Shown: positions 11,417-36,085 of the stretch, piece after piece | Layout: every line of letters begins with the position of its first letter | Position numbering within the stretch: position 1 is the first letter of the stretch | Source of the DNA: Haliscomenobacter hydrossis DSM 1100 | GTDB taxonomy: Bacteria > Bacteroidota > Bacteroidia > Chitinophagales > Saprospiraceae | DNA: 64,000 nt | Reading direction: 5' to 3' | Assembly: GCF_000212735.1 (NCBI RefSeq) | Contig: NC_015510.1 | Location: 992,001 to 1,056,000, forward strand | Program-made: the position numbers and the translations under genes | Notes under the pieces: generated by a model | Told to the model about the DNA's origin: nothing | Database searches by the model: none | The model's input: only the letters and a program-made list of their open reading frames with translations

Positions 11417-11421
11417 AAAAA

Positions 11422-11835
11422 ATGTACACACACGATTTTCAAAAGCGGGTCAGATACGGTGAAACCGACCAAATGGGCTACCTCTATTATGGGAATTACG
11501 CCCAATATTATGAAATCGGTCGGGTGGAAATGCTGCGCTCGTTGGGCTTAACCTACAAAGCAATGGAAGAAGAATGGGGAACCATGATGCCCGTTTTGTC
11601 TTTACAAATGCGCTACGTAAGGCCAGCTTATTACGACGAGTTGTTGACAATTCGCACCACTTTACGCCGATTACCGGATCAATTTATTACCTTTCACGTT
11701 GAAATTTTCAACGAAAAAGCCAAATTGGTCAATGGTGGAAATGTTCGCTTGTGCTTCATTGACATCAAAAGCAAACAAGCGGTTCCTACACCAGATTATT
11801 TGATTGAAAAACTCAGACCCTTTTTCGAGCCGTGA
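11422..11835 (+). CDS. acyl-CoA thioesterase, YbgC/4HBT family
   Basis: 137 residues forming a single hot-dog domain. FQKRVRYGETDQMGYLYYGNY contains the conserved Asp (TDQMG) and the Y-x-x-Y-x-E-x-R region typical of YbgC/FadM-like thioesterases. It hydrolyses acyl-CoA or acyl-ACP thioesters in the cytoplasm; the exact substrate is unknown. The start ATG 11422 is only a few bases behind the GTTCGGGG palindrome, with no Shine-Dalgarno. Its stop overlaps the GTG start of the next gene by 4 bp (GTGA), so the two are coupled. Confidence 0.88.
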   Translation: MYTHDFQKRVRYGETDQMGYLYYGNYAQYYEIGRVEMLRSLGLTYKAMEEEWGTMMPVLSLQMRYVRPAYYDELLTIRTTLRRLPDQFITFHVEIFNEKAKLVNGGNVRLCFIDIKSKQAVPTPDYLIEKLRPFFEP

Positions 11836-12866: not shown

Positions 12867-12976
12867 CAGCAATCAGCTATGAGCTATGAGCTTTCAGCAA
12901 TCAGCTATGAGCTTTCAGCAATCAGCAGTCAGCTTTTAACGTTTGGCTGATTGCTGAAAGCTCATAGCTGATTGCT
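12864..12976. repeat. iterated-word palindrome (TCAGCAATCAGCTATGAG type)
   Basis: The left arm (12864-12923) repeats AGCTATGAGCTTTCAGCAAT; the right arm (12943-12976) carries the exact complement of one such unit. It forms a hairpin of about 30 bp immediately behind the BrkB-family gene and ends 15 bp before the PorV/PorQ gene. Confidence 0.8.
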
Positions 12977-12990
12977 CAAAAACCAAGGAA

Positions 12991-14073: not shown

Positions 14074-14210
14074 GTAGCTGAATTACCCCTTTTTGCATGG
14101 ATACAACCAGGTCAAAATTACTGACAATTGCCCCCTCTATATTAATTTAGCTGATCGTTAAAGGGGGGATTTTCCCTATTCACCTGATTGTAAATTTTCA
14201 AGACCTAACC

Positions 14211-17200
14211 ATGCACAAACTAGGTACTATGCTGGCTTTGGCGCTTTGCTCATTAGCGTTAAATGGCCAATCCAATCTTTTGCTGCGCCATCCAGCGATC
14301 AACAATGATGGTTCTCAGATTGCTTTTTCTTTTCAAGGCGACATTTGGACCGTGGCGTCCAGTGGTGGTAAGGCCACCCGTCTCACCATCCACGAAGCCT
14401 ATGAAGGCAATCCTATGTACAGTCCCGATGGCAAAAAAATCGCCTTTTCGGGTGCACGTTATGGCAACAACGACGTATTTGTCATGCCTGCCGAAGGGGG
14501 AAGTCCCAAACGGCTCACCTACCACTCGGCTGGAGATAACGTAGCGGGCTGGGCATCCAACAGTCAGATTGTATTTTCTACTAATCGCGAATTCCGCCAA
14601 ATTGGTGGCCATCCTGAAATTTATGGAATCAACGCCAGCGGAGGTACCGAGTCCAGACTGCTCGACATCGAAGCATACGATCCGAGTTATTCTCCCGATG
14701 GCCGTTTCATCGCCCTGGTGCGCGGAAGCATCAACCCCGTTTTCCGCGAAGATTACAAAGGCTCCGCCAACCGCGAAATCTGGATTTACGACACCAGGAA
14801 CAAAAAGTACAACAAACTGCCATTGTTTAACACCAATGACATTTTACCCCGTTGGGGCAACAACCGTACCTTGTATTTTTTGAGCTCCGAGGCGGGTACG
14901 TACAACCTGTACCGCATCAATTTGAACGAAAACGGCCAAGCCCAGGGCGGTCCCGAAAAATTGACCACCTTTAAGGACGAAGCCATTCGCCACTTCAGCA
15001 TTTCCAGTGACGGGTCTACCATCGTTTTTGAAAAAGACATGAACCTCTACCTGCTGAAAGCGGGCAAAGGTGCGGGCACCAAAATCAATGTTCAAATCAG
15101 CGCCGATGACCGTTTTGACCCGGAAGAATTAAAAACCTTGAGTACCGGTGGCAGCGAACTGGCCATTTCGCCCAATGGGAAATTAATGGCGTACAGCATT
15201 CGGGGTGAAGTATTCATCAAAGAGGCCGACAAGGAAAAAAACCGCAGCGTCAATGTCTCTGATCACCCCAATCGCGACATGAATCCGACCTGGTTGAGCG
15301 ATACTTCACTGGTGTTTTGTTCCGACCGTGCCGATGGCAACTTTGAATTTTACATGCTTCGTTCGGCTGACCGCAGCGAGCCCAATCCATTTAAATCACT
15401 CAAACATGAGTTGATTCGTTTGACCCAAACCAAAGAAGATGAATCTTCGCCAGTGGTTTCTTCGGATGGCAAAAAAATCGCCTACAGCCGGGGTCGTGGC
15501 GATTTGATTGTGGCCGACATCGCCAGTGATGGAAAACTCAGCAACGAAAAAGTACTGGTTGATGGTTGGGCAGGTGCCAACGGGGTAAGCTGGAGCCCCG
15601 ACAACAAGTGGTTGGCTTATTCGATGACCGACCTGTATTTCAACAACGAAGTATTCATCCACGCTGCGGACAATTCCAAACCAGCCGTCAACGTGACCAT
15701 GCACCCGCGTACCGATGGGCAGCCTTTCTGGAGTGCGGATGGCTCTAAATTGGGCTTCATTTCCGAGCGCAACAACAACCGCAACGCCGATGTTTGGTTT
15801 GTGTGGTTGAAAAAAGAGGACTGGGAAAAAGTGAGCCAGGATTGGTTGGAAAAAGACGGTCCCGCAGAAGGGGCAGCTGCACCTGGCGGTGCCAGAGCCA
15901 ATGCCAAAGCCGAACCCAAACCCGTTCAAATTGATTTTGCCGACATCCACGAGCGGGTAGTCCAGGTGACCAGTTTCGCTGGTGATGAAGGCAATGTCAC
16001 CATTTCAAAAGATGGCCAAACCTTCTTCTACACCGGAAACAGCAGCACGGCCCGCGGCCGTGACCTGTACAGCATCAAATGGGATGGCAAGGATTTAAAA
16101 GAAATCACCCGCGGCGGCAGCAACCCATTTGGTCTACAAATGGACCGGGAAGGCAAATACATCTATTATACCCGTCAAGGTGGGTTTTCGCGCATCGATG
16201 TCAAATCCAGCGCACCCGAAGGATTGCCCTACGCTGCCAAGATGAAAGTTGACTACCCGGCCGAGCGTTTACAGATTTTTGAAGAGGCCTGGCGCACCAT
16301 CCGCGATGGGTTTTATGATCCCCAAATGCACGGATACGATTGGACTGCGCTGGGGCAAAAATACCGCGAGCGCTGTGTAAACGCCTCGACCAACAATGAT
16401 TTCCGCGACATGTTCAATTACCTGCTCGGCGAAATCAATGCCAGTCATATGGCCCTCACTGCTCCGGATCGTGCGGAGACGCAGCAGGAAGCAACGGGGA
16501 TGTTGGGCGCAGAATTGATGCCCACGAGCGCAGGTATGCGGGTAAATCACGTCATTCCAGAAAGCCCTGCCGCCAAAACGGGTAGCCAACTCCGCGAAGG
16601 TGACGTGATCACTGCCGTGAATGGAGAAACCGTCAACGAAACCAGCAATTTTTACGAAAGCCTGAACGGACAGGTGAACGAAAAGGTATTGCTCAACGTC
16701 CGGGGCAGTGATGGCCAAAACCGCGAGGTCATTATTCGCCCTACAGCCAGTTTGGCTCAAAACCTGTACGATGAGTGGGTAGACAATCGGAAAAAACTGG
16801 TCGATGAATGGTCTAAAGGCCGGTTGGGGTATATCCACATCCGGAGTATGGACTTTCCTAGTTTTGAAGAAACCGAGCGCGAATTTACGGCTGCGGGTTA
16901 TGGCAAAGATGGGCTGGTGATCGATGTGCGCTTCAATGGCGGTGGGTCAACTGCCGATTACCTGATGACGGTGCTCAACTACAAGCAGCACGCCTACACG
17001 GTTCCACGCGGCGCGAGTGAAGACCTGGAAAAAGACAAAAACAAATTCCGGGACTACTACCCTACTGGCGAACGCCTGGTGTTTTCAGCCTGGATGAAAC
17101 CTTCCGTTGCCCTTTGTAATGAAGGCAGTTATTCCAATGCGGAGATTTTTTCTCATGCCTACAAAACCCTGGGGATCGGCAAATTGGTAGGCCAAACCAC

Positions 17201-17420
17201 CAACGGCTCCGTGATTTCTACTGGCGGCCGTGGATTGATTGATGGTTCATTTGTACGCTTGCCTTTCCGGGGTTGGTTTACCAAAGCAACCGACAAGAAC
17301 CAGGAACTTGGGCCTGCTGTTCCGGATATTATCGTGGACAATTCTTTGGATTACACCGCTAAAGGGACGGATGAACAGTTGAAAGCAGCGGTTGAGGCGC
17401 TGCTTAAGGATTTGAAGTAG
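14211..17420 (+). CDS. tricorn-type protease (PD40 propeller, PDZ, S41 peptidase)
   Basis: 1069 residues with a signal peptide (MHKLGTMLALALCSLALNGQ). WD40-like PD40 repeats fill about residues 25-650 (YSPDGK-, SWSPDNKW- and WSADGSKLGF-like units), followed by a PDZ domain at about 765-845. The C-terminal S41 domain contains VRFNGGGSTADYL and the nucleophile segment NEGSYSNAEIFSHAYK. It is probably a periplasmic oligopeptide-degrading protease. The length matches bacterial tricorn homologues. A bidirectional hairpin starts in its stop codon. Confidence 0.92.
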   Translation: MHKLGTMLALALCSLALNGQSNLLLRHPAINNDGSQIAFSFQGDIWTVASSGGKATRLTIHEAYEGNPMYSPDGKKIAFSGARYGNNDVFVMPAEGGSPKRLTYHSAGDNVAGWASNSQIVFSTNREFRQIGGHPEIYGINASGGTESRLLDIEAYDPSYSPDGRFIALVRGSINPVFREDYKGSANREIWIYDTRNKKYNKLPLFNTNDILPRWGNNRTLYFLSSEAGTYNLYRINLNENGQAQGGPEKLTTFKDEAIRHFSISSDGSTIVFEKDMNLYLLKAGKGAGTKINVQISADDRFDPEELKTLSTGGSELAISPNGKLMAYSIRGEVFIKEADKEKNRSVNVSDHPNRDMNPTWLSDTSLVFCSDRADGNFEFYMLRSADRSEPNPFKSLKHELIRLTQTKEDESSPVVSSDGKKIAYSRGRGDLIVADIASDGKLSNEKVLVDGWAGANGVSWSPDNKWLAYSMTDLYFNNEVFIHAADNSKPAVNVTMHPRTDGQPFWSADGSKLGFISERNNNRNADVWFVWLKKEDWEKVSQDWLEKDGPAEGAAAPGGARANAKAEPKPVQIDFADIHERVVQVTSFAGDEGNVTISKDGQTFFYTGNSSTARGRDLYSIKWDGKDLKEITRGGSNPFGLQMDREGKYIYYTRQGGFSRIDVKSSAPEGLPYAAKMKVDYPAERLQIFEEAWRTIRDGFYDPQMHGYDWTALGQKYRERCVNASTNNDFRDMFNYLLGEINASHMALTAPDRAETQQEATGMLGAELMPTSAGMRVNHVIPESPAAKTGSQLREGDVITAVNGETVNETSNFYESLNGQVNEKVLLNVRGSDGQNREVIIRPTASLAQNLYDEWVDNRKKLVDEWSKGRLGYIHIRSMDFPSFEETEREFTAAGYGKDGLVIDVRFNGGGSTADYLMTVLNYKQHAYTVPRGASEDLEKDKNKFRDYYPTGERLVFSAWMKPSVALCNEGSYSNAEIFSHAYKTLGIGKLVGQTTNGSVISTGGRGLIDGSFVRLPFRGWFTKATDKNQELGPAVPDIIVDNSLDYTAKGTDEQLKAAVEALLKDLK

Positions 17421-17493
17421 GTTTTTTATTGAAAATACATCCCTTGCGCCTCGGCTCCGCTCGGCGACCGGGATGTATTTTCAATAAAAACCT
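17419..17493. terminator. bidirectional hairpin terminator
   Basis: Arm 17419-17443 (AGGTTTTTTATTGAAAATAC plus ATCCC) pairs with 17470-17493. The hairpin overlaps the stop codons of the convergent tricorn and patatin genes, and A/T tracts at both ends suit both directions. Its loop contains the GC-rich word CTCGGCTCCGCTCGGCG, which recurs in the hairpin at 46716-46807. Confidence 0.8.
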
Positions 17494-19367
17494 CACAGCT
17501 CAATCATCCCCCGCTCCCTAAAGTCCAACAGAATCACCTTAATGGCCCGTTTGGCGATGTTTTTCCCCAAAATTCGCGTCAAAAAGGTTCTCCAGGCCCA
17601 GAGGATTATCCTGGTCCAAAACGATTTTTTGCCCGAGGCCTTTGGTTTGTCACCATAATAATTGGCCATCAATTGATCCACATCTGCGTGTACCTCTTTG
17701 TTGTAATGGCTATCTGGAGGCGTATTGAGGGCAAAAATGTGATCCAGTACGGTTTTGAAACGTTGACCCATCAGCGGATCCAACCGGAATATCTCGCTGG
17801 CGCGGATTTTTTGTTTGACGGGCTCTGGCAAATACGCTTCGTGGTACACACTTTCCGCCATATTGGCGATGCCCATATCTGGAATAATGGGATAAAAGCC
17901 TGGTCCACCCAGTTCATTGGGGATAAAAAAACGTTGGTGCTTCGGATCTGATGCGTCATTTTTCCAATCGCCAAACACCTTGGCATTATCGAGTTTATCC
18001 AGTGGAATGGTAAAGTGTTTGCGCAGAAATTTTTGACAGTTGTACCGCCCGAGATGAAAATCGTGTTCCCGAAATTCGCGGCTAAAAAAGCCCCCAAAGC
18101 CATCCAGCGCTCCACAAGCAATGGGATAAGGGTCATCTTTCTTTTTGGGAAAAACCATCCGACGCGTCACATCCCCCGATAATCCCCGCATCAGGTCGTT
18201 TTCTTTCACCATGGCCTGGGCGCGAATGGCTCCAAAAATATTGGGAATCAAGTCCAGCAAAGACGTCGGCTGCTTGTATTTTTTGGTTTTGTCCTCCGCA
18301 AAGTTGGGAAATGGATCAATCATGATGATGGCATAGGGACTGCCTTCATTTTTGCATTTTTCCTCCACCGCTTCGATGATTTCCCCAAATGGCTCATTGT
18401 TGATGGTACCTCCATCGATGGCCACGAGGTCAAAAGGGTCTTGTTCCGCAGTGATTTCGATGGCCTGCTCCATTTTCGGTTGGTTTTGCAGGCCAAACAT
18501 GCGGTAAATCATGGCTTTGATGTAGGGCAAACCAATGTTGCTGAGAGGTCGGGCCCGTAAACCCAGCGGAAATGCCCCCGTAGCCTTGGCACATTCCAGG
18601 AGCATTTTGCGGTCTGCCTCCTGTTCCGGTTGAAAAGGAACGACATGCGGAGCTTGGTATTGACCGGGGGTGCGCATCACCATAAAATGAGCAATGCCTT
18701 TGTGGACGTACATGCGGTGGGCGGGTTGGTCTTTGGCATCCGAGGCAGAAAAGGCATCCTTGGACTTTTCGGCCTGTTGTTTCAACTCTTCCCGCATTTT
18801 GTTGTCAAAAAAATTAACCGCTACGGGTACGCCACGCAAACTTGTAATGGTAAGAATGATCTGCAAATTGGGCGAAACATACTCCGGTAAATCCTTGATT
18901 TGAGCCATAATTCCGGCGTTGTCGGCAATGGCATCGATGGGATCCGAATTGAGCAAAGACTGCACTTCGTTATTCAAGGCAATGTCTTCGGTTCCCAACA
19001 TCTGCTCCAGGGTAGGCACACCCACATGGTCATTGAGGTTGACCCAGGAATCGTACAATTTATTCTGCTGCCTTTCAGGATTGTATTCATTGATGGGATT
19101 GACTCCTTCAAACATGGCCAAAGCAGCAATGGCGGCGGTCATTCCGCCTGCGGAGGCACCACCCATCACCTCAATGACCACATCGTGCATGGGAACGGAG
19201 TGATCGTACATGGGATTTTCCTCGCCAAGTTCTTCATTGAGTTTCTTGGCGCGGTCCCATTTTTCGAGGGTTTCCAATAGATAATCGATTACGCCCGCGG
19301 TGTAGGCTCCGGCAGAAACGGCGCCTGCCATAGCGATGCCGATTTTGAATGTTTTGCGCGTTTTCAT
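17493..19367 (-). CDS. patatin-like phospholipase family protein
   Basis: 624 residues from ATG 19367. An upstream ATG at 19463 would translate the palindrome and is rejected. KIGIAMAGAVSAGAYTAGVI is an oxyanion-loop-like start, GGASAGG holds the serine-lipase elbow (G-x-S-x-G), and IDGGTINNEP holds the Asp of the catalytic dyad. It likely hydrolyses acyl esters of lipids, and no signal peptide is evident. It is larger than minimal patatins, with an extra C-terminal 250 residues. It is convergent with the tricorn gene and separated from it by a shared terminator. Confidence 0.87.
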   Translation of the reverse strand: MKTRKTFKIGIAMAGAVSAGAYTAGVIDYLLETLEKWDRAKKLNEELGEENPMYDHSVPMHDVVIEVMGGASAGGMTAAIAALAMFEGVNPINEYNPERQQNKLYDSWVNLNDHVGVPTLEQMLGTEDIALNNEVQSLLNSDPIDAIADNAGIMAQIKDLPEYVSPNLQIILTITSLRGVPVAVNFFDNKMREELKQQAEKSKDAFSASDAKDQPAHRMYVHKGIAHFMVMRTPGQYQAPHVVPFQPEQEADRKMLLECAKATGAFPLGLRARPLSNIGLPYIKAMIYRMFGLQNQPKMEQAIEITAEQDPFDLVAIDGGTINNEPFGEIIEAVEEKCKNEGSPYAIIMIDPFPNFAEDKTKKYKQPTSLLDLIPNIFGAIRAQAMVKENDLMRGLSGDVTRRMVFPKKKDDPYPIACGALDGFGGFFSREFREHDFHLGRYNCQKFLRKHFTIPLDKLDNAKVFGDWKNDASDPKHQRFFIPNELGGPGFYPIIPDMGIANMAESVYHEAYLPEPVKQKIRASEIFRLDPLMGQRFKTVLDHIFALNTPPDSHYNKEVHADVDQLMANYYGDKPKASGKKSFWTRIILWAWRTFLTRILGKNIAKRAIKVILLDFRERGMIEL

Positions 19368-27116: not shown

Positions 27117-27245
27117 AAGATGGGCAAAGGCATAACCCCCTGCAACCCCAGGATTGTTAAGTTCTAAAGTAGCGCCAAAATCCAACCTTAAATAAAAGGG
27201 AGAATCTTTTAACTACCAAAAATAAGAGTCGCGTAGCGACGAACG

Positions 27246-27405
27246 ATTTTGTAGCGGTGGGTTTTAACCCGCCGATGAAAATGGTCGATCTTGTTTTTAA
27301 TAGCGTGCCGTAGGTACGACCAATTTTGACTAATTTAGGGTACCTACGGCACTCCATAACCTGATCACGCAACTGACGGCGGGTTGAAACCCGCCGCTAC
27401 AAAAT
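27246..27405. repeat. nested palindrome (GTAGCGGCGGGTT type)
   Basis: Outer arms 27246-27274 (ATTTTGTAGCGGTGGGTTTT) and 27377-27405 are inverted complements. Inner arms GTGCCGTAGGTAC (27305-27317) and GTACCTACGGCAC (27340-27352) are perfect. No ORF of substance is present. It lies behind the DinB-like gene. Confidence 0.8.
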
Positions 27406-27409
27406 GGGT

Positions 27410-27851
27410 CATCACTACGCGATTGCATTTGGAGAAAATGAACCTTTATCCACTATGATTCGATACGGTTTTTGAGCCACTCTATTTTTCTTTGACGGCT
27501 GCTTAAGATCAGCGATTAATACCAAAATTTTAGCGGTTTTAGAAGGGAGATCCTACGCTTTCGAATACAAGCAAGGGGTCAAATGATGTGTGGCTGAAAT
27601 TATCGGTGCGCAAGTCTTGTTACTGGGCAATAAAAGGGTCGTAGAAGACTGCGCATTTTGTATTGTCCGCAAGAGGGCTTTTAAATATTGCGTACTTCGC
27701 ATTTTGTATTGTTGCTAAAGTCACGAAGCGGTGCATCTTCAATCAATCTATTCATTATCAGATTGATGAAATTAAAAATTACAGATGTTTGAAGGTTTAG
27801 TGCGCATGGTTTATCTTTACCAAGCGGCGCAATAAGTGCGCATATTTCCGT
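27410..27851. other. non-coding stretch left of the intact cassettes
   Basis: About 440 bp with no supported gene. It contains a direct repeat of CGCATTTTGTATTGT (near 27654 and 27700). GCGCAATAAGTGCGCATATT, immediately left of the first cassette core, could be half of a very diverged site. I cannot resolve an attC or attI here. The small minus ORF 27681-27917 crosses the first cassette start and is not supported. Confidence 0.4.
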
Positions 27852-27880
27852 GTTATAGCCAATTTTAAAACAGACACAGA

Positions 27881-28534
27881 ATGAAGAGAATTTTAACACT
27901 ATTAGCCTTTTTCCCATTGACCTTAATGGCTCAACAAAGCGACTTTGGTAACTGGTTAATCTATTTTGGCGACAAAAAAATAAACAATCGTTGGAACTGG
28001 CATCACGAAGTACAGTACCGAAACTTCAACTTTATTGGGGACACTGAACAATTACTTTTAAGAACAGGTATCGGCTACAACCTAACAGAAAATAATAACA
28101 ACATTCATCTTGGTTACGGTTTTATTTATAGCGAACCCTACATTGCAGGTACTGAGAATAAGGCTAACTTCAATGAGCACAGAATTTATCAACAGTTCAT
28201 CACCAGACAGAGTTTTGGTCGAATTTCATTACAACACCGCTATCGTTTTGAACAACGATTTTTTGAAGACGATTTTAGACTTCGGTTAAGATACTTCTTG
28301 TCTACAAACATTGCCTTGAATCACAAACAAATGCAGGACAAGACTGTTTATCTCTCTATTTACAATGAAATTTTCGTGAATACAGAGCAAACCTTTTTAG
28401 ACCGCAATCGATTCTATGGTGGTGTTGGGTATAGGTTTTCCAAAACTGTACGAACAGAAATTGGCGTAATGAATCAAACAACTAACAGTGTGTCAAGAAA
28501 CCAATTGAATCTAATAACATTCGTAAACTTTTAA
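27881..28534 (+). CDS. DUF2490 family outer-membrane protein
   Basis: 217 residues with a signal peptide (MKRILTLLAFFPLTLMAQQS). NWLIYFGDKKINNRWNWHHE is the usual N-terminal motif of DUF2490 beta-barrels. Aromatic-alternating strands continue to a terminal FVNF. Presumed outer-membrane protein of unknown function. It begins 20 bp behind the cassette's first base, typical of cassette genes. AT-rich. Confidence 0.8.
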   Translation: MKRILTLLAFFPLTLMAQQSDFGNWLIYFGDKKINNRWNWHHEVQYRNFNFIGDTEQLLLRTGIGYNLTENNNNIHLGYGFIYSEPYIAGTENKANFNEHRIYQQFITRQSFGRISLQHRYRFEQRFFEDDFRLRLRYFLSTNIALNHKQMQDKTVYLSIYNEIFVNTEQTFLDRNRFYGGVGYRFSKTVRTEIGVMNQTTNSVSRNQLNLITFVNF

Positions 28535-28544
28535 AAAAAGCGGA

Positions 28545-28575
28545 AAAGCCGAACACCGTTTTACAAAGTAGGCAA
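28545..28575 (+). repeat. attC-like scar inside cassette Y
   Basis: AAAAGCCGAACACCGTTTTA and the following CAAAGTAGGCAAA resemble the left arm of the intact repeats. They are nearly identical to the leader of cassette A (30530-30557). It precedes the carbonic anhydrase ATG by about 20 bp and may mark a fusion of two cassettes or serve as a shared leader. Confidence 0.5.
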
Positions 28576-28593
28576 AATTAAACAATAAACATA

Positions 28594-29334
28594 ATGACAA
28601 AAAAGTTTTTAATCATTCCAGGGCTTGCTCTCGCTTTTTTAACAGCTTGTAACAACCCAAAACCGAGTGAGACCTCGGCAAATGAATCAGCAGTGAATCA
28701 AGCCAAAGCATTGGTACAAGAAGTGCTAACCAAAGAACAAAGAGACGCTTTAACACCAGATGAAATTATTCAAACATTCAAAGAAGGAAACGAACGGTTT
28801 GTAAACAACGACTTAACAGCAAGAGACCATTCTGCTCAAGTGAGAAAAAGTGCAACAGGACAATTTCCAAAAGCAGTTGTTCTATCTTGTTTGGACAGTA
28901 GAGTTCCAGTAGAAGATGTTTTCGATAGGGGAATCGGTGATATTTTCGTTGGCAGAGTTGCAGGTAATTTTGTAAACGAAGACTTACTTGGAAGTATGGA
29001 ATTTGGTTGCAAAGTAGCAGGTGCAAAAGTTATTCTTGTACTTGGACACGAACATTGTGGGGCAGTAAAATCTGCCATTGATGACGTAAAGTTGGGCAAC
29101 ATCACTGCGATGTTATCTAAAATTCGTCCAGCAGTTGAGAAAGTTACTTACGAAGGCGACCGTACATCAGGTAATCCAGAGTTCGTGCATCAAGTATGTG
29201 AGAGTAATGTAAAAAATACCATCGAACAAATCAGACAAAATAGTCCAATTTTAAAAGAAATGGAAGATAATGGACAAATCAAAATTATTGGAGCTGTTTA
29301 CGATATGGATACTGGTAAAGTAACATTTTTGTAG
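28594..29334 (+). CDS. beta-class carbonic anhydrase, exported lipoprotein
   Basis: 246 residues. The lipobox-type signal peptide (IPGLALAFLTAC, Cys19) means it is probably anchored in the periplasm, unlike the usual cytoplasmic form. The beta-CA zinc site is visible: SCLDSRVP (Cys and Asp-Arg dyad) and GHEHCGAV (His and Cys). It interconverts CO2 and bicarbonate. Length is family-typical plus a roughly 55-residue exported N-terminal part. It is last in cassette Y. Confidence 0.9.
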   Translation: MTKKFLIIPGLALAFLTACNNPKPSETSANESAVNQAKALVQEVLTKEQRDALTPDEIIQTFKEGNERFVNNDLTARDHSAQVRKSATGQFPKAVVLSCLDSRVPVEDVFDRGIGDIFVGRVAGNFVNEDLLGSMEFGCKVAGAKVILVLGHEHCGAVKSAIDDVKLGNITAMLSKIRPAVEKVTYEGDRTSGNPEFVHQVCESNVKNTIEQIRQNSPILKEMEDNGQIKIIGAVYDMDTGKVTFL

Positions 29335-29342
29335 GAGAAAAC

Positions 29343-29481
29343 TGGCTATAACAGCGGTTTTGCGTCAGGCGGGGTTTCGTGCTTCGTCTGACGCTTTTGT
29401 GGTTTAATGAACATTTGTGCTTCGTATGAATTTTTGTGGTAAAAATCCCGCCCGAACGCAAAGCCGCCAAACGTTGGCTGT
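29343..29481 (+). repeat. attC-like site of cassette Y
   Basis: 139 bp. The left end TGGCTATAAC, then AGCGGTTTTGCGTCAGGCGG, pairs with a right arm CCCGCCCGAACGCAAAGCCG before the core AACGTTGGCTGT. The loop contains two direct copies of a motif like GTGCTTCGTxTGA-TTTTGTGGT (29375-29404 and 29413-29441). Recombination is expected after G29473. Confidence 0.8.
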
Positions 29482-30447
29482 AATGGCATCGCAGACACTC
29501 AAAAGTTTAGCAGGACAAAGCAACGATTCTTAATTTTTAATTGTCATCAATACTATGCGAAAAATTATTTTTTTGACACTACTGATATTTTCAGTTACCT
29601 CATACGGACAAAGCCATAAGTGGCAGTTATCTATTCAGCTACAGCCTGAACTTACTTTCCATAAAGACAGTTATCCATGGTGGAAGGAAAGTAATGATAA
29701 ATCAACATTAAATATTGGTGTTGCTTCAATAGTTCAATATGACATTAACAAAAGCCTTTTTGTAAGTTCTGGAGTAGGCTTCATATCACGGACGTTACAT
29801 ACAGCGAATTTTTTAAACCAAGCAGCATTACCACCACCAAAACAAAGTTTTACGAACGAACTGGTAACAACAAAATCAGTTTCGTATAGGGTCATTTCTT
29901 TTCCAGTTATTATTGGATACAACTTTATATCGACCACCAAGTTCAAGAGTTTTATTACGACAGGTTTTTCAGGAAACTACTTATTGAACACAGCCTACAA
30001 ATCTAATTTTTCAAGGTATGACGGAGCTTATAAAAAAAGTTATTGGCAAGGATATTCACTGACAGTTGGCTTAGGAACTGACTTCAAATTGACAAAGAAA
30101 CTTCAAGCGACATCTTCTTTATCATATGCGTATAAACATCTTGTGAAAGAAGATGAATATATCTTAAATCAAAATGGTAACGGTTTGACATTGGGACACA
30201 ATTATTTAAGTCTAAGTGTAGGTATTAAACTTTCCTTGTAGGACAAAAAGCCACTACAGCCAACATTGGGTTTTGTGCAAGTTGGGCAGACGTAATAACA
30301 ATGAGCATTTGTAATTCTGCTCAGCTTTTGTTTGGGCTTGACAAACAACATTGAACATTAGTTCTTAACTTCAACTTTATATTTTCAATCAGCAGCGGTT
30401 TCGGGCAGACGGAATTCTATTTCCCAACCTGCACAAAACCCTGTACG
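29474..30447 (+). mobile_element. gene cassette Z (outer-membrane barrel)
   Basis: Core GTTGGCTGTA (29473-29482) equals the complement of TACAGCCAAC (30255-30264) at the left end of its own terminal repeat, 10 of 10 bases. The next core, GTTAGGTGC, does not match. Length 974 bp, one gene, + orientation. Confidence 0.8.
29555..30241 (+). CDS. outer-membrane beta-barrel protein (PorT/OMP_b-brl-like)
   Basis: 228 residues. The signal peptide (MRKIIFLTLLIFSVTSYGQS) is followed by alternating-strand sequence with FSGNYLLN, GLGTDFKLTKKLQATSSLSY and a terminal strand LSLSVGIKLSL ending in a hydrophobic residue. It resembles the small PorT-like barrel proteins of Bacteroidota. No catalytic function is expected. 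Sole gene of cassette Z. Confidence 0.7.
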   Translation: MRKIIFLTLLIFSVTSYGQSHKWQLSIQLQPELTFHKDSYPWWKESNDKSTLNIGVASIVQYDINKSLFVSSGVGFISRTLHTANFLNQAALPPPKQSFTNELVTTKSVSYRVISFPVIIGYNFISTTKFKSFITTGFSGNYLLNTAYKSNFSRYDGAYKKSYWQGYSLTVGLGTDFKLTKKLQATSSLSYAYKHLVKEDEYILNQNGNGLTLGHNYLSLSVGIKLSL

Positions 30448-30455
30448 TTAGGTGC
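30255..30455 (+). repeat. attC-like site of cassette Z (long variant)
   Basis: About 200 bp. The left arm TTGGGTTTTGTGCAAGTTGG (from 30266) and the right-arm complement near 30421-30443 pair over about 20 bp with one mismatch. Core ACGTTAGGTGC follows at 30445. The loop is longer than in the other sites and lacks the clear two-copy motif. Confidence 0.75.
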
Positions 30456-30529
30456 AAGCGTAATGACCGACCATCAGACAAACCAAACATTTAGAGCAAT
30501 AATTTGTTCTTGCAACAATGCGGACAAGC

Positions 30530-30557
30530 CGAACACCGTTTTAAGAAGTAGGCAAAT
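30530..30557 (+). repeat. attC-like scar or shared leader in cassette A, copy 1
   Basis: AAGCCGAACACCGTTTTAAG and AAGTAGGCAAAT match the leader in front of the carbonic anhydrase gene (28545-28575). In both places a lipoprotein gene follows within about 20 bp. Repeated identically in copy 2 at 32535-32562. Confidence 0.5.
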
Positions 30558-30573
30558 TTTAAATTATCAAAAT

Positions 30574-30930
30574 ATGAGCAAACAGTTTTTGTTTTCAATC
30601 TTAACAGCGGGAGTTTTGGCTACTTCCTGCAATCAAGTTACTGAAAAAGCCAAAGAAGAAACCCAAAACGTTTTAAACCAAACCAGTAAGGACGTTCAAA
30701 AAGTTATTGACGACCTAGGACTTGTTTACGTAGAAGAAGGGGCCCAAAACATCATCACTTATGAAGAAGTAAACGCTGCACAACAAGCGTGGTGCGATGC
30801 TTTGGTTAAAATTGGCAAACTTAAAGAAGAAGGTGGCGATTACAAAGGATTTGCAGAACAGGTTCTTACTAAATTATATGAAACTGTTGATGTAATAGGG
30901 CAGAAAAGAGAAAAATCGCATAAATCATAA
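30574..30930 (+). CDS. small lipoprotein, hypothetical (cassette A copy 1)
   Basis: 118 residues from ATG 30574. The frame is open from 30463, but the lipoprotein signal (MSKQFLFSILTAGVLATSCN, Cys19) argues for the internal start. The mature part is acidic and helical (KAKEETQNVLNQTSKDVQKV). The family is not recognised. The MscS-like gene follows after 6 bp, so the two are co-expressed. An identical copy is at 32579-32935. Confidence 0.7.
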   Translation: MSKQFLFSILTAGVLATSCNQVTEKAKEETQNVLNQTSKDVQKVIDDLGLVYVEEGAQNIITYEEVNAAQQAWCDALVKIGKLKEEGGDYKGFAEQVLTKLYETVDVIGQKREKSHKS

Positions 30931-30936
30931 ACCGTT

Positions 30937-31449
30937 ATGGATCCTTACAAGATACAAATTACAGAAAGCTTAATCGTTACTGTAATATTATTGATTTCTA
31001 AGTTTACGTTAAGATATTTTGTGAATCTCAAAATATTGAACTCATATTTTAAAAACACCGTAAAAAAGGATGTCCTAAAAATAATCAATCTCTTATTATT
31101 CGTGACATTTAGTATAATACTGGTGGCCATTTGGAGTGTAAAGCAGGAAAATATATTAGTTGTTGCAAGTTCACTCTTTACCGTCTTAGGTGTTGCACTC
31201 TTTGCAGAAATGTCTATTCTTTCGAATGTCACCGCCTGTTTAATACTCTTTTTCCAACATCCCATAAAAGTTGGGGATACTATTGGAATTACACATGAAG
31301 GCAAGGATATTGAAGGCGAATTGATTGAGATTACGTACTTCTTTGCATTCATAAAAACTCCTAATAGCGGCACTTTAACAATACCTAATGCTTTGTTTCT
31401 AAAAAGTTCATTTCGAATACTTGAAAAATCTTCAAAATCAGAGTATTAA
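30937..31449 (+). CDS. small MscS-family mechanosensitive channel (cassette A copy 1)
   Basis: 170 residues. Two or three membrane helices (about 10-27, 47-66 and 70-90) are followed by a pore-helix-like segment (GVALFAEMSILSNVTACLIL) and the MscS beta-domain signature (HPIKVGDTIGI, then EGELIEITYFFAFIKTPNSG and TLTIPNALFLKS). It is truncated relative to E. coli MscS (286 residues), lacking most of the C-terminal alpha/beta cage, as in small MscS paralogues. It probably releases osmolytes. Confidence 0.82.
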   Translation: MDPYKIQITESLIVTVILLISKFTLRYFVNLKILNSYFKNTVKKDVLKIINLLLFVTFSIILVAIWSVKQENILVVASSLFTVLGVALFAEMSILSNVTACLILFFQHPIKVGDTIGITHEGKDIEGELIEITYFFAFIKTPNSGTLTIPNALFLKSSFRILEKSSKSEY

Positions 31450-31507
31450 CATGCCAAAATAACACGCACTAATGAATTCTACAATTTCCTCGAACAAAGG
31501 AACGCCA

Positions 31508-31643
31508 GCACCTAACAGCACCTACCCAAAAGGCGGGGTTTCGTGTTCCACAGACAGTTTTGTGGTTAATCAAACATTAGTTTTTCAAATCAATTTTTGT
31601 GGTAAAAGGCCCGCCCTTCGGGTAGCTGCAAAACGTTATATGC
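31508..31643 (+). repeat. attC-like site of cassette A, copy 1
   Basis: 136 bp. Left end GCACCTAAC, stem left AGCACCTACCCAAAAGGCGG, right arm CCCGCCCTTCGGGTAGCTGC and core AACGTTATATGC. The loop has two copies of the TTCGTGTTCCACAG-TTTTGTGGT-type motif; the second copy is diverged. Confidence 0.8.
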
Positions 31644-32452
31644 AACCCTACCAGACCGACAGTGCAACATTTAAACAACAGAAAAGACAACAATGAAATT
31701 AACGAGTAACATAGACAAATTGGGGACGGCTGGACTTTTCTTGACCGCAATATTTTCACCTTGTTGTTTTCCACTTTTTGCATTTGCAGCATCGGCACTT
31801 GGACTTGGTAGTTTTGAACTTTTCGGTGGGTGGACAATGTGGATTTTTCAAGCAATGGTTTTAATATCTGTTGGCGGACTTTACATTTCGTATCGCAGAC
31901 ACCGTTGTATGTATCCGTTAATGGTTGCTATTCCAAGCGGACTTTTAATTTTTTACGCTTACCACATAAACGACAGCGACTACTGGACATATTTTCTTTA
32001 TGCTGGTATGTTCGGACTTCTCATAGCGACAATTTGGAATTATAAACGAAACAAAATGAACGGAACTTGCGACACTTGCACAACCTACAACGGTAAGACC
32101 GTTGAAACACAATCAACTTTGACCTGCCCCAACTGCGGACACAAGAAAACTGAAATTATGCCGACAGACGCTTGTGTATATTTCTATGAGTGTGAAAAAT
32201 GTAAAACACGACTGAAACCATTACAAGGCGACTGTTGTGTTTATTGTAGTTACGGGACAGTTAAATGTCCACCAATTCAAGCAGGAGAAAATTGTTGCTA
32301 ATGGACACGACAGAAAAAAGGGCAGCATATAACAGCACATTTGCAATAGGCGGGGTTTCGTGCTCCGCAGACAGTTTAGTGGTAGCCGAAAGTTTTGTGC
32401 TCCGCATCAAGTTCAGTGGTAAAAATCCCGCCCATCGCAAATCTGAAAAACG
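31636..32452 (+). mobile_element. gene cassette B (MerC-GDCCVxC)
   Basis: 817 bp. Core GTTATATGC (31635-31643) is the complement of GCATATAAC (32325-32333) in its own repeat. The adjacent downstream core GTTAGGTGC does not pair with it. It is inserted between two identical copies of cassette A. Confidence 0.82.
31693..32301 (+). CDS. MerC-domain protein with C-terminal GDCCVxC metal motif
   Basis: 202 residues. The N-terminal membrane part has four hydrophobic segments, with the metal-binding pair in FSPCCFPLF as in MerC mercury importers. The C-terminal cytoplasmic part is Cys-rich: CDTCTTYN, CPNCGHKKTE, CEKCKTRL and GDCCVYCSYG, the last being the GDCCVxC domain. It likely transports or senses Hg or another soft metal. 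Sole gene of cassette B, starting 57 bp behind the core. Confidence 0.85.
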   Translation: MKLTSNIDKLGTAGLFLTAIFSPCCFPLFAFAASALGLGSFELFGGWTMWIFQAMVLISVGGLYISYRRHRCMYPLMVAIPSGLLIFYAYHINDSDYWTYFLYAGMFGLLIATIWNYKRNKMNGTCDTCTTYNGKTVETQSTLTCPNCGHKKTEIMPTDACVYFYECEKCKTRLKPLQGDCCVYCSYGTVKCPPIQAGENCC

Positions 32453-32460
32453 TTAGGTGC
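32325..32460 (+). repeat. attC-like site of cassette B
   Basis: 136 bp. GCATATAAC, then left stem CACATTTGCAATAGGCGGGG, right stem CCCGCCCATCGCAAATCTG and core AACGTTAGGTGC. The two direct copies in the loop (32356-32384 and 32393-32421) share the private variant GTGCTCCGCA, more alike to each other than to other sites. Confidence 0.82.
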
Positions 32461-32534
32461 AAGCGTAATGACCGACCATCAGACAAACCAAACATTTAGA
32501 GCAATAATTTGTTCTTGCAACAATGCGGACAAGC

Positions 32535-32562
32535 CGAACACCGTTTTAAGAAGTAGGCAAAT
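32535..32562 (+). repeat. attC-like scar or shared leader in cassette A, copy 2
   Basis: Identical to 30530-30557. It precedes the second lipoprotein gene by about 20 bp. Confidence 0.5.
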
Positions 32563-32578
32563 TTTAAATTATCAAAAT

Positions 32579-32935
32579 ATGAGCAAACAGTTTTTGTTTT
32601 CAATCTTAACAGCGGGAGTTTTGGCTACTTCCTGCAATCAAGTTACTGAAAAAGCCAAAGAAGAAACCCAAAACGTTTTAAACCAAACCAGTAAGGACGT
32701 TCAAAAAGTTATTGACGACCTAGGACTTGTTTACGTAGAAGAAGGGGCCCAAAACATCATCACTTATGAAGAAGTAAACGCTGCACAACAAGCGTGGTGC
32801 GATGCTTTGGTTAAAATTGGCAAACTTAAAGAAGAAGGTGGCGATTACAAAGGATTTGCAGAACAGGTTCTTACTAAATTATATGAAACTGTTGATGTAA
32901 TAGGGCAGAAAAGAGAAAAATCGCATAAATCATAA
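32579..32935 (+). CDS. small lipoprotein, hypothetical (cassette A copy 2)
   Basis: 118 residues identical to the protein at 30574-30930, with the lipobox Cys19 (VLATSC). Same start choice. The identity at nucleotide level shows a recent duplication. Family unknown. Confidence 0.7.
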   Translation: MSKQFLFSILTAGVLATSCNQVTEKAKEETQNVLNQTSKDVQKVIDDLGLVYVEEGAQNIITYEEVNAAQQAWCDALVKIGKLKEEGGDYKGFAEQVLTKLYETVDVIGQKREKSHKS

Positions 32936-32941
32936 ACCGTT

Positions 32942-33454
32942 ATGGATCCTTACAAGATACAAATTACAGAAAGCTTAATCGTTACTGTAATATTATTGAT
33001 TTCTAAGTTTACGTTAAGATATTTTGTGAATCTCAAAATATTGAACTCATATTTTAAAAACACCGTAAAAAAGGATGTCCTAAAAATAATCAATCTCTTA
33101 TTATTCGTGACATTTAGTATAATACTGGTGGCCATTTGGAGTGTAAAGCAGGAAAATATATTAGTTGTTGCAAGTTCACTCTTTACCGTCTTAGGTGTTG
33201 CACTCTTTGCAGAAATGTCTATTCTTTCGAATGTCACCGCCTGTTTAATACTCTTTTTCCAACATCCCATAAAAGTTGGGGATACTATTGGAATTACACA
33301 TGAAGGCAAGGATATTGAAGGCGAATTGATTGAGATTACGTACTTCTTTGCATTCATAAAAACTCCTAATAGCGGCACTTTAACAATACCTAATGCTTTG
33401 TTTCTAAAAAGTTCATTTCGAATACTTGAAAAATCTTCAAAATCAGAGTATTAA
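32942..33454 (+). CDS. small MscS-family mechanosensitive channel (cassette A copy 2)
   Basis: 170 residues identical to the channel at 30937-31449. Both copies are intact, which fits a recent duplication with either no selection against dosage or too little time for decay. Confidence 0.82.
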   Translation: MDPYKIQITESLIVTVILLISKFTLRYFVNLKILNSYFKNTVKKDVLKIINLLLFVTFSIILVAIWSVKQENILVVASSLFTVLGVALFAEMSILSNVTACLILFFQHPIKVGDTIGITHEGKDIEGELIEITYFFAFIKTPNSGTLTIPNALFLKSSFRILEKSSKSEY

Positions 33455-33512
33455 CATGCCAAAATAACACGCACTAATGAATTCTACAATTTCCTCGAAC
33501 AAAGGAACGCCA

Positions 33513-33648
33513 GCACCTAACAGCACCTACCCAAAAGGCGGGGTTTCGTGTTCCACAGACAGTTTTGTGGTTAATCAAACATTAGTTTTTCAAATCAATT
33601 TTTGTGGTAAAAGGCCCGCCCTTCGGGTAGCTGCAAAACGTTAGCGGT
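33513..33648 (+). repeat. attC-like site of cassette A, copy 2
   Basis: Same as 31508-31643 up to the core, after which the sequence becomes GTTAGCGGT (start of cassette C). The change of the six bases after GTTA between the two copies shows that the 3' core half belongs to the next cassette. Confidence 0.82.
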
Positions 33649-33674
33649 CAGGCTAAAAGACAACCCGAAACAAA

Positions 33675-34142
33675 ATGGAATACCTAGCAAAAGACGAAAT
33701 ATTAGAATTGAAATATGAACACGGCAAAGGTGCGTGGACTTATCATATTCAAATCCCAAACACCAAACATATTGTCGGAAAATGGGGTTCATTAAAAGTA
33801 TCAGGTACTATTGACGATTACAAAATTGACAGCATCAACCTATTTACAATTACGGGACAAGACAAACTAATTTCTATCAACGACAAAATCAGAAAAGCAA
33901 TTAATAAAGGCGGTGGCGACAAAGTTATAGTGACTCTCTACCTACTGACTTCAAAGGAACAAATTACCGAAAAGGAAATTTTAGAAACATTCAAAGAATC
34001 AGGAGTTTTGAAAGCATTTAAAAAGTTGCCTGACGAAGAACAAAAAGAAATCATTGGAAAAATTGCTTCTACAAAATCGGAAGAAAAACAGATTAAAGTG
34101 ATTTTGAAATTTATTGACCAATTAAGCAAAAGCAATGATTAA
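33675..34142 (+). CDS. DUF1905/YdeI-like (OmpD-associated) protein
   Basis: 155 residues. The N-terminal beta-rich part (LELKYEHGKGAWTYHIQIPN and KVSGTIDDYKIDSINLF) fits DUF1905. The C-terminal part (FKKLPDEEQKEIIGKIAST, KSEEKQIKVILKFIDQL) resembles the YdeI/OmpD-associated helical motif. The function is unknown. Its stop overlaps the ATG of the DUF2461 gene (AATGATTAA), so the two were coupled. Confidence 0.75.
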   Translation: MEYLAKDEILELKYEHGKGAWTYHIQIPNTKHIVGKWGSLKVSGTIDDYKIDSINLFTITGQDKLISINDKIRKAINKGGGDKVIVTLYLLTSKEQITEKEILETFKESGVLKAFKKLPDEEQKEIIGKIASTKSEEKQIKVILKFIDQLSKSND

Positions 34143-34293
34143 GCAGACTTCACTTGATTTCCTTTCAAAACTAAAAAAGAATAACTCAAAAGATTGGTTT
34201 GAACAAAACCGAGATTTATACGAGCATTACAAAACTGACATTCTAGAATTGACAGAAAACCTTTTGACAGGATTAACGCAATTTGACCAAACT

Positions 34294-34302
34294 ATTTCAC
34301 AT
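34294..34302 (+). repeat. 9-bp target-site duplication, left copy
   Basis: ATTTCACAT here and at 35421-35429 directly abut the terminal inverted repeats of the IS. A 9-bp duplication fits the IS903 group of the IS5 family. Confidence 0.85.
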
Positions 34303-35420
34303 GGCGTTGTTGCATGAATAAAAAGCCAATATCTAAGACCGTTGCTAGGCAAGCTAAGCAGTCATTTTCGGTTTAGAAACAGGCATACCTTGGGCTGTCA
34401 TGATATTGAGGAGCTTAATTTTTATATTGGTTTCTTTTTGCTGGGTTTCAAATTTTCGGGAGAAAAAGCTGGGGCCGTGGATCGTTTTGAAACGGAACAT
34501 GGTAGTCTCGGCTAAACTTCGTCGATGGTAATTACTCTCCTTTTTCCAGTTTGCCCGATCTACTTCATGGATCCGTTCGATGGCCATATTTCGAGGGTAG
34601 TAGGGGGAATCATCAGGCTCCTTGGCATACCAAATCACAGCATCGGCACGTGGGGGAATGACCGGATTGATTTGTTGCTTAATCAAAGTTTCCCAGCATT
34701 CAAAGTGGTCGTAGGCTCCATCGAGGTATCCTTCTTTGACTTTAGGCTTGATCTGTCCAATCAAATCTTTGAGTTGGGAACCATCATCAATGTCATTAAG
34801 GGTTAAGGTATGGCAATGGATATAGCCAGTTTGAGGGTCAACACCCAAGTGCAGCTTACGCCAGGTTCGACGCTTGGAATACCCATGTTTGCGTACTTTC
34901 CATTCTCCTTCCCCAAACACTTTGATCCCGGTAGAATCGATGGCAATAGTGATAGAGCCTTTTGTTTTGATGACCATAGGTTGAATATCCAGTTCCTTGA
35001 CCCGACGGCTCACTTGGGTGTAACAAGGTACTTTAAGTTCTTTACAACCCATTATTACCAACAGACTTTGAGTAAAACCGGTGGCTTGACGATACGCCAA
35101 CTTGAATACCGTCTTGAGCATGAAGATCGTTTCTATGCATATATCACTGTATACATATTGCCCGCCACGTGCTTTGGGGCCAGTCTCATTCCAACTTTTT
35201 ATGGCTGCGTCCGAGATGTATAAGGTGATATTGCCTCGATTAACTAAGCTCTGATTGTAGCTTGACCAGTTTTCAATCTGGTATTTTTGCTTTGGCTTAT
35301 TGCTTCCCTGATCTGCTTTAGTTACCTTTGACATGGGCTGGTTGGGTTGGGTTGTTCTTCGCAAAAGCAAATTTAACCGGATCAGCCTATTTTTTTAGTG
35401 GAGATTCATGCAACAACGCC
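34303..35420 (-). mobile_element. IS5-family (IS903-like) insertion sequence, 1118 bp
   Basis: Perfect 17-bp terminal inverted repeats: GGCGTTGTTGCATGAAT at 34303-34319 and its complement at 35404-35420. They resemble the IS903 ends (GGCTTTGTTGAATAAATC from memory). One complete transposase on the minus strand and a 9-bp target duplication indicate a recent and possibly active insertion. Confidence 0.9.
34354..35334 (-). CDS. IS5-family transposase
   Basis: 326 residues from ATG 35334; the frame is open from 35370. DDE residues are visible in IAIDSTGIKV (D), YLDGAYDHF (D) and RRSLAETTMFRFK (E), with the IS5-typical WRKLHLGVD between the first two. It cuts and pastes the surrounding 1118-bp element. 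No frameshift is seen. Confidence 0.92.
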   Translation of the reverse strand: MSKVTKADQGSNKPKQKYQIENWSSYNQSLVNRGNITLYISDAAIKSWNETGPKARGGQYVYSDICIETIFMLKTVFKLAYRQATGFTQSLLVIMGCKELKVPCYTQVSRRVKELDIQPMVIKTKGSITIAIDSTGIKVFGEGEWKVRKHGYSKRRTWRKLHLGVDPQTGYIHCHTLTLNDIDDGSQLKDLIGQIKPKVKEGYLDGAYDHFECWETLIKQQINPVIPPRADAVIWYAKEPDDSPYYPRNMAIERIHEVDRANWKKESNYHRRSLAETTMFRFKTIHGPSFFSRKFETQQKETNIKIKLLNIMTAQGMPVSKPKMTA

Positions 35421-35429
35421 ATTTCACAT
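35421..35429 (+). repeat. 9-bp target-site duplication, right copy
   Basis: ATTTCACAT, matching 34294-34302 directly left of the IS. Confidence 0.85.
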
Positions 35430-35948
35430 GCCAATTTAGACCCCAAAAAGTGTTTGACAAGAGTAAACAGAGATTTGCGATTTTCAAAAGACAAGACACC
35501 CTACAAAAACTATGTTTTAATTGTATTTAACAAAAATGGTTTTCACGGCAACACGGCAGGATATTATATTCAAATTGAGCCAAATGCTAACTTTTTAGGT
35601 GGCGGAATTTGGCAGACAACACCTGAACTTCTTAAAAAAATACGTCAAGAAATAGACTACTCATTTACTGACATTAACAAAATTATAACATCACCAAAGT
35701 TTAAAACGACCTTTCCAAGCGGAATACAAGGTGTAGGTAAACTAAAAAAAATGCCAGACGGCTATGACGAAACAAATCCAGCAAGCGAACTTTTGAAAAT
35801 GAAAGGGTTTTGTACTAAGGAAATCGTAAGCGACAAAATGCTAACAAGCAAAGACTGCGTTGCGAAAATCTTGGACAGTTTTAAGGCTTCAAAACCTCTC
35901 ATTGACTATATAAACAAAGCAATAGAGTATGACGAGTAAAAAGCCCGA

Positions 35949-36085
35949 ACCGCTAACATCGGTTTTGCATAATGGCGGGTTCAGTTCTTCGTATGACAAT
36001 TTAGTGCAAGGTTCAAGTGCAGTTCTTCGATTGAACTTTTGTGCTATAAATCCGCCACTACGCAAAGCCGAGAACCGTTAGCAGC
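35949..36085 (+). repeat. attC-like site of cassette C (right end of array)
   Basis: Left end ACCGCTAAC, stem TCGGTTTTGCATAATGGCGG, right stem TCCGCCACTACGCAAAGCCG and core ACCGTTAGCAGC. Two loop copies share the private TTCTTCG variant (35979-36008 and 36016-36046). No complement of the next core (GCTGCTAAC) follows within the flanking gene region, so the array appears to end here. Confidence 0.8.

Follow-up and report, generated by a model that had tools for sequence, protein, structure and literature searches.

An integron-like gene-cassette array in Haliscomenobacter hydrossis DSM 1100, with attC-type sites and a distant candidate recombinase lacking the IntI-specific insertion

The analysis presented here concerns a stretch of 64,000 nucleotides from the genome of the Bacteroidota member Haliscomenobacter hydrossis DSM 1100 (positions 992001-1056000 of contig 1; hereinafter, the window) and, within it, an array of six consecutive units on the plus strand. 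According to the sequence comparisons reported below, the six units are very probably cassettes of an integron-like system, likely moved at folded attC-type sites by an IntI-like recombinase that is devoid of the IntI-specific insertion and is encoded 367 kb away. The genome analysed is 8,771,651 bases long and is divided into four contigs; the published genome of the type strain is reported to have 8,771,651 bases, including three plasmids (PMC3156403).

The preliminary description of this DNA had divided the array into six units at ACGTT-type cores, and all the cut positions proved to be correct, with the core GTT starting at 27852, 29473, 30447, 31635, 32452, 33640, and 36077. Each cassette extends from core to core (G/TT) and closes in an imperfectly palindromic stretch, about 130-195 nt long, the outer 9-10 bp of which are complementary to the first bases of the cassette itself and not to the next core. 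The array is organized as follows:

27853..29473, plus strand: cassette 1 (1621 bp), DUF2490 protein and beta-carbonic anhydrase (Pfam PF10677, PF00484)
29343..29475, plus strand: attC-type site of cassette 1, own-end pairing of 10 bp
29474..30447, plus strand: cassette 2 (974 bp), outer-membrane beta-barrel protein (PF13568), own-end pairing of 10 bp
30255..30449, plus strand: attC-type site of cassette 2, long-loop form of about 195 nt
30448..31635, plus strand: cassette 3 (1188 bp), 155-aa protein and MscS-type channel domain protein (PF00924), identical to cassette 5
31508..31637, plus strand: attC-type site of cassette 3, own-end pairing of 9 bp
31636..32452, plus strand: cassette 4 (817 bp), MerC / GDCCVxC domain protein (PF03203, NF041374)
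32325..32454, plus strand: attC-type site of cassette 4, own-end pairing of 9 bp
32453..33640, plus strand: cassette 5 (1188 bp), exact copy of cassette 3
33513..33642, plus strand: attC-type site of cassette 5, own-end pairing of 9 bp
33641..36077, plus strand: cassette 6 (2437 bp), DUF1905 protein and DUF2461 gene interrupted by an IS5 element (PF08922, PF09365, NF033579)
34301..35422, minus strand: IS5-family insertion in the DUF2461 gene of cassette 6 (NF033579, 297 bits), transposase at 34354-35370 on the minus strand
35949..36079, plus strand: attC-type site of cassette 6, the last of the array, own-end pairing of 9 bp

The pairing of each unit with its own end amounts to 10, 10, 9, 9, 9, and 9 bp in units 1-6, respectively, against only 3, 3, 4, 4, 5, and 6 bp when the same arms are compared with the following core; thus, the pairing previously noticed in six of six units was found again in all of them. 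Units 3 and 5 show no differences over 1,188 bp, so that the array embeds five independent units and not six. The earlier opinion that such a pairing is hard to obtain by chance also holds: only two out of the 720 possible matchings of starts and ends reach the observed score, that is, the true one and the one in which the identical units 3 and 5 are swapped, and out of 200,000 random GTT/AAC pairs drawn from the window, 127 reach at least 9 bp. Moreover, the five units (up to 666.9 kb) of a second array of the same genome, described below, show an own-end pairing of 9-10 bp, which brings the figure over both arrays to 11 out of 11 units, nine of them distinct.

A comparison of 61 distinct sites revealed that the two inner helices, together with the AAC/GTT ends, keep 92.4% of their pairs, versus 30-41% when the alignment is slid; since this alignment was fitted to the structure, the former figure leans towards it. 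Changes on both sides were observed at 18 of the 21 pairs. The own-end pairing represents an independent test of the structure of the sites: at least 9 bp were found in 34 out of 58 sites from the own and other loci, compared to 46 of 1,133 control arms, the set consisting of 59 of 67 sites (after dropping eight duplicates at the same place or in the same cassette), 58 of which had at least 600 nt upstream and about half only about 1.4 kb. In the recombinase loci of the named genomes discussed below, the same threshold is reached by 50 out of 59 sites and by 47 of 1,157 control arms.

The boxes of classical attC sites follow the consensus RYYYAAC / GTTRRRY, and these sites, which carry bulged (extrahelical) bases and an unpaired spacer in the folded bottom strand, are recombined via that strand. 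The preliminary description had ascribed the same boxes to the sites under study, and this assignment has to be abandoned, given that RYYYAAC is matched by just 8 of the 182 distinct arms and GTTRRRY by 14 of 182; the near-constant part of the boxes is YAAC/GTTR, with 180 of the 182 distinct arms reading Y-AAC. Furthermore, the spacer between the box and the inner stem is one-sided and 4-5 nt long, and 46 of the 61 sites harbor exactly one non-Watson-Crick pair at position 15/16, with no bulge there. When the sites of the window were circularised, the bottom strand was energetically favoured in five out of five distinct sites.

The cassettes also recur as discrete blocks. Unit 1 (1,621 bp) has a 100% identical counterpart in the second array (G000:C1:657044-658664), with different neighbours on both sides; outside the unit, the identity continues for one base at the left border and for two at the right border, corresponding to the shared core. 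Unit 4 is present, from core to core, in another genus of the family (genome G174), with 95.5% identity over 822 bases and unrelated sequences on both sides. These data indicate that the cassettes are exchanged as precise units. In the other genomes of the family, unit 1 has partial matches with 65-79% identity (51 of 297). The synteny of the window locus was checked within the genus: the right flank was retrieved from two out of four genomes, with about 520 bp shared and no sites in the stretch beside it, and the left flank of the array had no match in any of the four, so that no clean empty site can be demonstrated.

The covariance search over the genome and its relatives, which the preliminary description had proposed, was carried out with two models, R1, built from four sites, and the wider R2, built from 67. 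In the H. hydrossis genome, R1 retrieved 13 sites at E <= 1.2e-9. Five of these belong to the window, another five form a cluster at 654.9-674.7 kb, and three stand alone; a weaker match (31 bits) was obtained on contig C4 (92 kb). R1 missed the long-loop site of cassette 2, for which R2 gave a weak match (36 bits). The cluster represents the second array, which starts 367 kb from that of the window, directly behind a tyrosine recombinase gene, an SSB gene, and an attI-like stretch of about 210 bases; the two genes are co-directional with this (primary) array and lie upstream of its attI-like region. The features involved are the following:

27610..27852, plus strand: attI-like region heading the window array, a copy without recombinase, whose similarity to the other copies ends at the core GTT
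27788..27819, plus strand: predicted cassette promoter (TTTG, 20 nt, TATCTTTA)
L036:11375-12442: tyrosine recombinase gene (355 aa), at the head of the second array
L036:12466-12804: SSB gene (PF00436), behind the recombinase gene

The attI-like region is common to three loci of the H. hydrossis genome and to other genomes. Positions 27557-27875 of the window are 77.9% identical over 321 bp to the stretch from the end of the SSB gene to the first core of the second array; another copy with the tail of the SSB gene is located at 672.9-673.2 kb (83.5%), and an incomplete copy at 646.8-647.0 kb. In an alignment of 11 copies from Haliscomenobacter and related genomes, conservation extends as far as the core and drops beyond it, the core being GTT in nine of them, GTA in L241c, and GCT in L240; in L101, one of the nine with GTT, the contig ends at the core. 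This pattern suggests that the core serves as the insertion point. Ten of the 11 copies contain the motif TTTATCTTTA, whose end lies 32 bases ahead of the core in the window and which seems to resemble a Bacteroidota promoter, the consensus of which is TTTG/TAnnTTTG. In another Haliscomenobacter genome (L241, G199:C277), three attI-like copies were observed within 5 kb on the minus strand, at about 1280, 4353, and 6222; hence, attI copies apparently multiply by themselves.

The recombinase belongs to a large group of proteins. Relatives at E <= 1e-60 were found in 90 of 298 genomes of the family (the own genome included), and 7,815 of the 8,000 database proteins scored as candidates are related to it at E <= 1e-30. 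We aligned 79 members, corresponding to the 74 of 85 recombinase open reading frames that passed a 270-430 aa filter (the own one included) plus five database proteins. The stretch between the KDR and HxLRH motifs is 63-66 residues long in all 79, compared to 106 in IntI1 and in the IntI of genome G028, the only family genome with a classical IntI, and to 70 and 73 in the XerC and XerD of H. hydrossis; in the alignment with IntI4 (2a3v), 21 residues of the recombinase face 64 of IntI4. The IntI-specific insertion is thus lacking, as judged from the alignment, in 79/79 members. The catalytic residues R213, R305, H328, and Y337 are invariant in 79/79 and H302 is conserved in 77/79. With respect to IntI, the protein carries an N-terminal extension of about 85 aa, and a C-terminal tail of the SP[LF]D type is shared by 68 of the 79 members and both IntI aligned and is absent from the own XerC and XerD.

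As for the curated models, the integron integrase model TIGR02249 gives the recombinase 183 bits in two pieces and does not reach its cut-off of 265 bits, and the best NCBIfam model by score, NF040815, stops at 196.4 bits, below its cut-off of 220. When the predicted structure (mean pLDDT 81.6, pTM 0.50) was compared with the PDB, IntI4 (2a3v) ranked first, with XerA close behind. The preliminary description had pointed to an IntI-type recombinase elsewhere in the genome: an IntI-like enzyme does head the second array, whereas a classical IntI was not found, no protein of the genome exceeding the TIGR02249 cut-off. A recombinase tree with XerC and XerD as the only outgroup did not place IntI securely, and a position of the group as the sister of IntI is not supported by it. 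The name 'site-specific tyrosine recombinase/integron integrase' is already borne, as a name, by some relatives at NCBI. Among the database matches, plasmid tyrosine recombinases from Acinetobacter and others (H23-H27, one of them named TnpF) are 48% identical to the recombinase over two thirds of its length. A further tyrosine recombinase gene lies in the window itself, at 2511-3044 (G000:C1:994511-995044; 429-aa frame), with a weak similarity to XerA and no R1 site nearby.

The phylogenetic distribution of the sites was then compared with that of the recombinase. R1 sites at E <= 0.01 were retrieved from 91 of the 298 family genomes; with R2 at E <= 1e-4, 179 of the 395 genomes sampled from the phylum proved to carry sites, as did 99 of its 171 sampled genera, and at E <= 0.01 sites were detected in none of 12 genomes from other phyla. 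The link between the two elements was assessed in a scan of named genomes that started from the recombinase and covered 80 loci (40 from Bacteroidota, 38 from other phyla, and two unplaced). All the 59 R2 sites found there (E <= 0.01) fall into 21 of the 40 Bacteroidota loci, and 55 of them lie downstream of the recombinase gene and in the same direction; among the loci with at least 1 kb downstream, a downstream site is present in 18 of 30 from Bacteroidota versus none of 33 from other phyla (P 3e-8). Named examples with sites are Flavobacterium enshiense, F. aciduliphilum, Algoriphagus ornithinivorans, Seonamhaeicola aphaedonensis, Algibacter onchidii, and Winogradskyella ursingii.

Within the family, 80 of the 94 other recombinase matches listed were inspected as loci: 12 hold R2 sites at E <= 0.001, and 20 of the 22 sites are downstream and co-directional, the other two (L104) being on the opposite side. 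The five closest relatives (at least 56% identity) have sites downstream in L102, L103, and L105 and on the other side in L104, and in L101 the contig ends. A contig end within 1.5 kb of the recombinase gene occurs on the 3' side in 46 of the 80 family loci and on the 5' side in two, as would be expected if a repeat-rich array follows the gene. Lastly, 20 array stretches from 15 Bacteroidota genomes of other families were considered; a recombinase relative was detected within the stretch in five of the genomes (L212; L213, in two pieces; L216; L223, with sites on the other side; and L224), and none was detected in the remaining 10.

Two plasmid loci deserve mention as observations in their own right. 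In L324 (plasmid of Chryseobacterium sp. SNU WT5, 8974-19014), four complete attC-type sites, plus a fifth truncated by the end of the stretch, come after the recombinase gene, and the cassettes include RidA, metallophosphoesterase, and GLPGLI-family genes. In L327 (mobilizable plasmid of Flagellimonas marinaquae, 6919-7763), two attC-type sites flank a dihydrofolate reductase family gene, near erm(F).

According to the mechanism that we propose, the pairing of the attC would be complete again once a cassette is free and circular; a single folded strand of this site (the bottom one, by analogy with integrons) would be bound by the recombinase, strand exchange at GTT with the attI would place the cassette first behind the attI promoter, and excision would be the reverse of insertion. 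The window array and the dispersed attI copies would be served in trans from the distant recombinase gene, and SSB may help in handling the single-stranded substrate.

Several data weigh against this reading. A recognised downstream site is carried by only 9 of the 43 family loci with at least 1 kb downstream, and 12 of the 30 comparable Bacteroidota loci in the scan of named genomes have none; sites of other types may escape R2, or a part of these recombinases may have a different function. At the genome level, of the 91 family genomes bearing R1 sites only 38 have the recombinase (E <= 1e-60), which occurs in 52 others with no R1 site (odds 2.1, P 0.006). With co-occurrence only moderate and so few family loci bearing sites, the claim rests on the adjacency of the two elements where sites occur and on the cassette copies. 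The isolated sites of the H. hydrossis genome (G000:C4:8792-8926, L039:8469-8601, L040:8446-8576, and a fourth in L038) were inspected for an own end: two have none, the arm of L040 is unreadable, and L038 shows one of 10 bp; those without it are perhaps decayed remnants. An SSB gene adjoins the recombinase gene in only 4 of 81 loci, that is, in the own genome and three others, so that SSB would be an accessory at most and its role as a general partner of the recombinase was rejected. Such an arrangement is seen in L127 (G067:C88, 9498-10662), where a recombinase only 46% identical to that of H. hydrossis is immediately followed by an SSB gene (65% identical). Moreover, published work on IntI describes the additional domain as necessary (PMC9668308), and an archaeal Xer protein scores slightly above IntI4 in sequence searches with our recombinase.

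This last point bears on the alternative that, in our opinion, is unlikely and yet stronger than the others, namely that the same recombinase acts, Xer-like, on double-stranded DNA or on extruded cruciforms and not on a folded single strand. It would agree with the absence of the IntI-specific insertion from the whole alignment, with Xer proteins scoring about as well as IntI4 by sequence, and with the folding energy of the inner part of the sites, which hardly discriminates between the strands: the bottom one is more stable in 112 of 198, a weak preference that counts against the folded-strand reading and leaves folding energy indecisive as proof of bottom-strand use. However, the boxes are variable and little beyond YAAC/GTTR is constant, which would leave little to be read on double strands, and the folded form is conserved by covariation, with the non-Watson-Crick pair at a fixed place in most sites.

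A second alternative depicts the array as an ordinary attC cluster devoid of integrase, the cassettes being moved by a classical IntI located elsewhere in the genome or in relatives. The overall cassette logic and the GTT core are indeed the same, and 53 family genomes have sites and no recombinase at the threshold used; nevertheless, an IntI above the TIGR02249 cut-off is missing from the own genome and occurs in 1 of the 298 family genomes (G028), which in turn has no R1 site, a different recombinase heads the arrays, and the boxes deviate from the consensus, so that this scenario appears highly improbable. The preliminary description held that the lack of any IntI-type recombinase in genomes with such sites would speak against its reading; for the classical IntI this is literally what was found in the family sample, whereas the IntI-like recombinase is there. 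Least probable of all is that the units are non-autonomous transposons similar to miniature inverted-repeat transposable elements, with the 9-10 bp pairing as terminal inverted repeats for a transposase: inverted ends do occur in each unit and some units exist in copies, but these ends vary between units, neighbours have one border in common, each unit ends at least about 120 nt past the second arm, and where copies were compared, they have their joints at cores and no flanks in common.

On balance, the reading of the six units as cassettes of an integron-like system agrees with the integron logic advanced in the preliminary description as far as the own-end pairing, the attI-like head, the recombinase heading the second array, and the copies with exact borders are concerned; the equation with the classical integron is not supported. 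Indeed, the recombinase lacks the insertion and falls short of the curated cut-off, and the sites do not follow the box consensus, which sets the system outside the classical integron family. On a broader scale, we incline, with some reservation, to the view that Bacteroidota possess an integron lineage of their own, in which a second recombinase class without the IntI insertion, with its own attC type, serves arrays and dispersed attI copies throughout the phylum, from chromosomes to plasmids. Such a lineage would be a sister or a precursor state of the classical integron.

As for the remaining features, the first cassettes of the recombinase-linked array (L036:13065-16895) encode a GmrSD-type protein (PADLOC PDC-M55C, 125 bits) and a protein with an Mrr-type endonuclease domain, so that some cassettes may carry anti-phage genes; the PADLOC models gave the one GmrSD-type match and none for the six further proteins tested. 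The IS5-family element of cassette 6 (34301-35422) has inverted ends of at least 14 bp. Just to the left of the array, at 27220-27410 of the window, intergenic inverted repeats (GTAGCGG...GGTT and its complement) were spotted by eye. No Rfam family exceeded its threshold in the window.

Complete integrons are rarely reported in Bacteroidota. The phylum is listed among those with integrons (PMC8618304, PMC9668308), and the passage devoted to Bacteroidetes proper in PMC9024848 names one complete integron; an older survey recorded intI in the Bacteroidetes/Chlorobi group, selecting the genes for the additional domain or patch (PMC2426708), and the eleven taxon-specific attC models of 2021, as enumerated in PMC8352920, include none for Bacteroidota. 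The IntI-specific domain is used as a hallmark of integrons (PMC9668308, PMC2426708), and sites of the type described here occur in 179 of 395 genomes; hence, the scarcity of Bacteroidota integrons may be largely a detection gap. Some of the sites may be among the integrase-less clusters of the IntegronFinder survey. A literature search over open-access papers retrieved no description of this system, and what appears to be new here is an integron-like system of which both the recombinase class and the site type are its own. If the recombinase works, a domain held to be necessary for integron recombination would be dispensable, and the way in which a shorter enzyme reads a folded site would become directly testable. 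This, in turn, would give a large phylum a precise route of gene exchange, as illustrated by a cassette common to two genera and by an array on a plasmid.

Among the known systems, the integron-like subgroup of simple tyrosine recombinases (PMC8138268) is close in that the insertion is not fully conserved there either, according to the account given of that subgroup; thus, insertion-less relatives have already been seen as sequences. The same account calls the insertion essential for integron function, a further point against a functional enzyme of this kind, and links the insertion-less members to no cassettes. XerA, represented by NF040815, is similar in giving the best NCBIfam score and in the spacing of its catalytic domain; it differs in that the recombinase remains below the cut-off of that model and that 68 of the 79 members have the SP[LF]D-type tail, which the own XerC and XerD lack. 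A close resemblance also exists to the sedentary chromosomal integrons, such as that of Vibrio cholerae, which share with the system of H. hydrossis the core-to-core cassettes, the attC-like imperfect palindromes with own-end boxes, the attI-like head with a likely promoter, the recombinase gene at the head, the exact cassette copies, and, through IntI4, the best structural match. Unlike those integrons, the H. hydrossis system has a recombinase without the IntI insertion and with the N-terminal extension of about 85 aa, encoded upstream of the array and co-directional with it, boxes other than RYYYAAC, a one-sided spacer with a mismatched pair in place of the bulged bases of classical attC sites, and, in some loci, an SSB gene between the recombinase and the attI.

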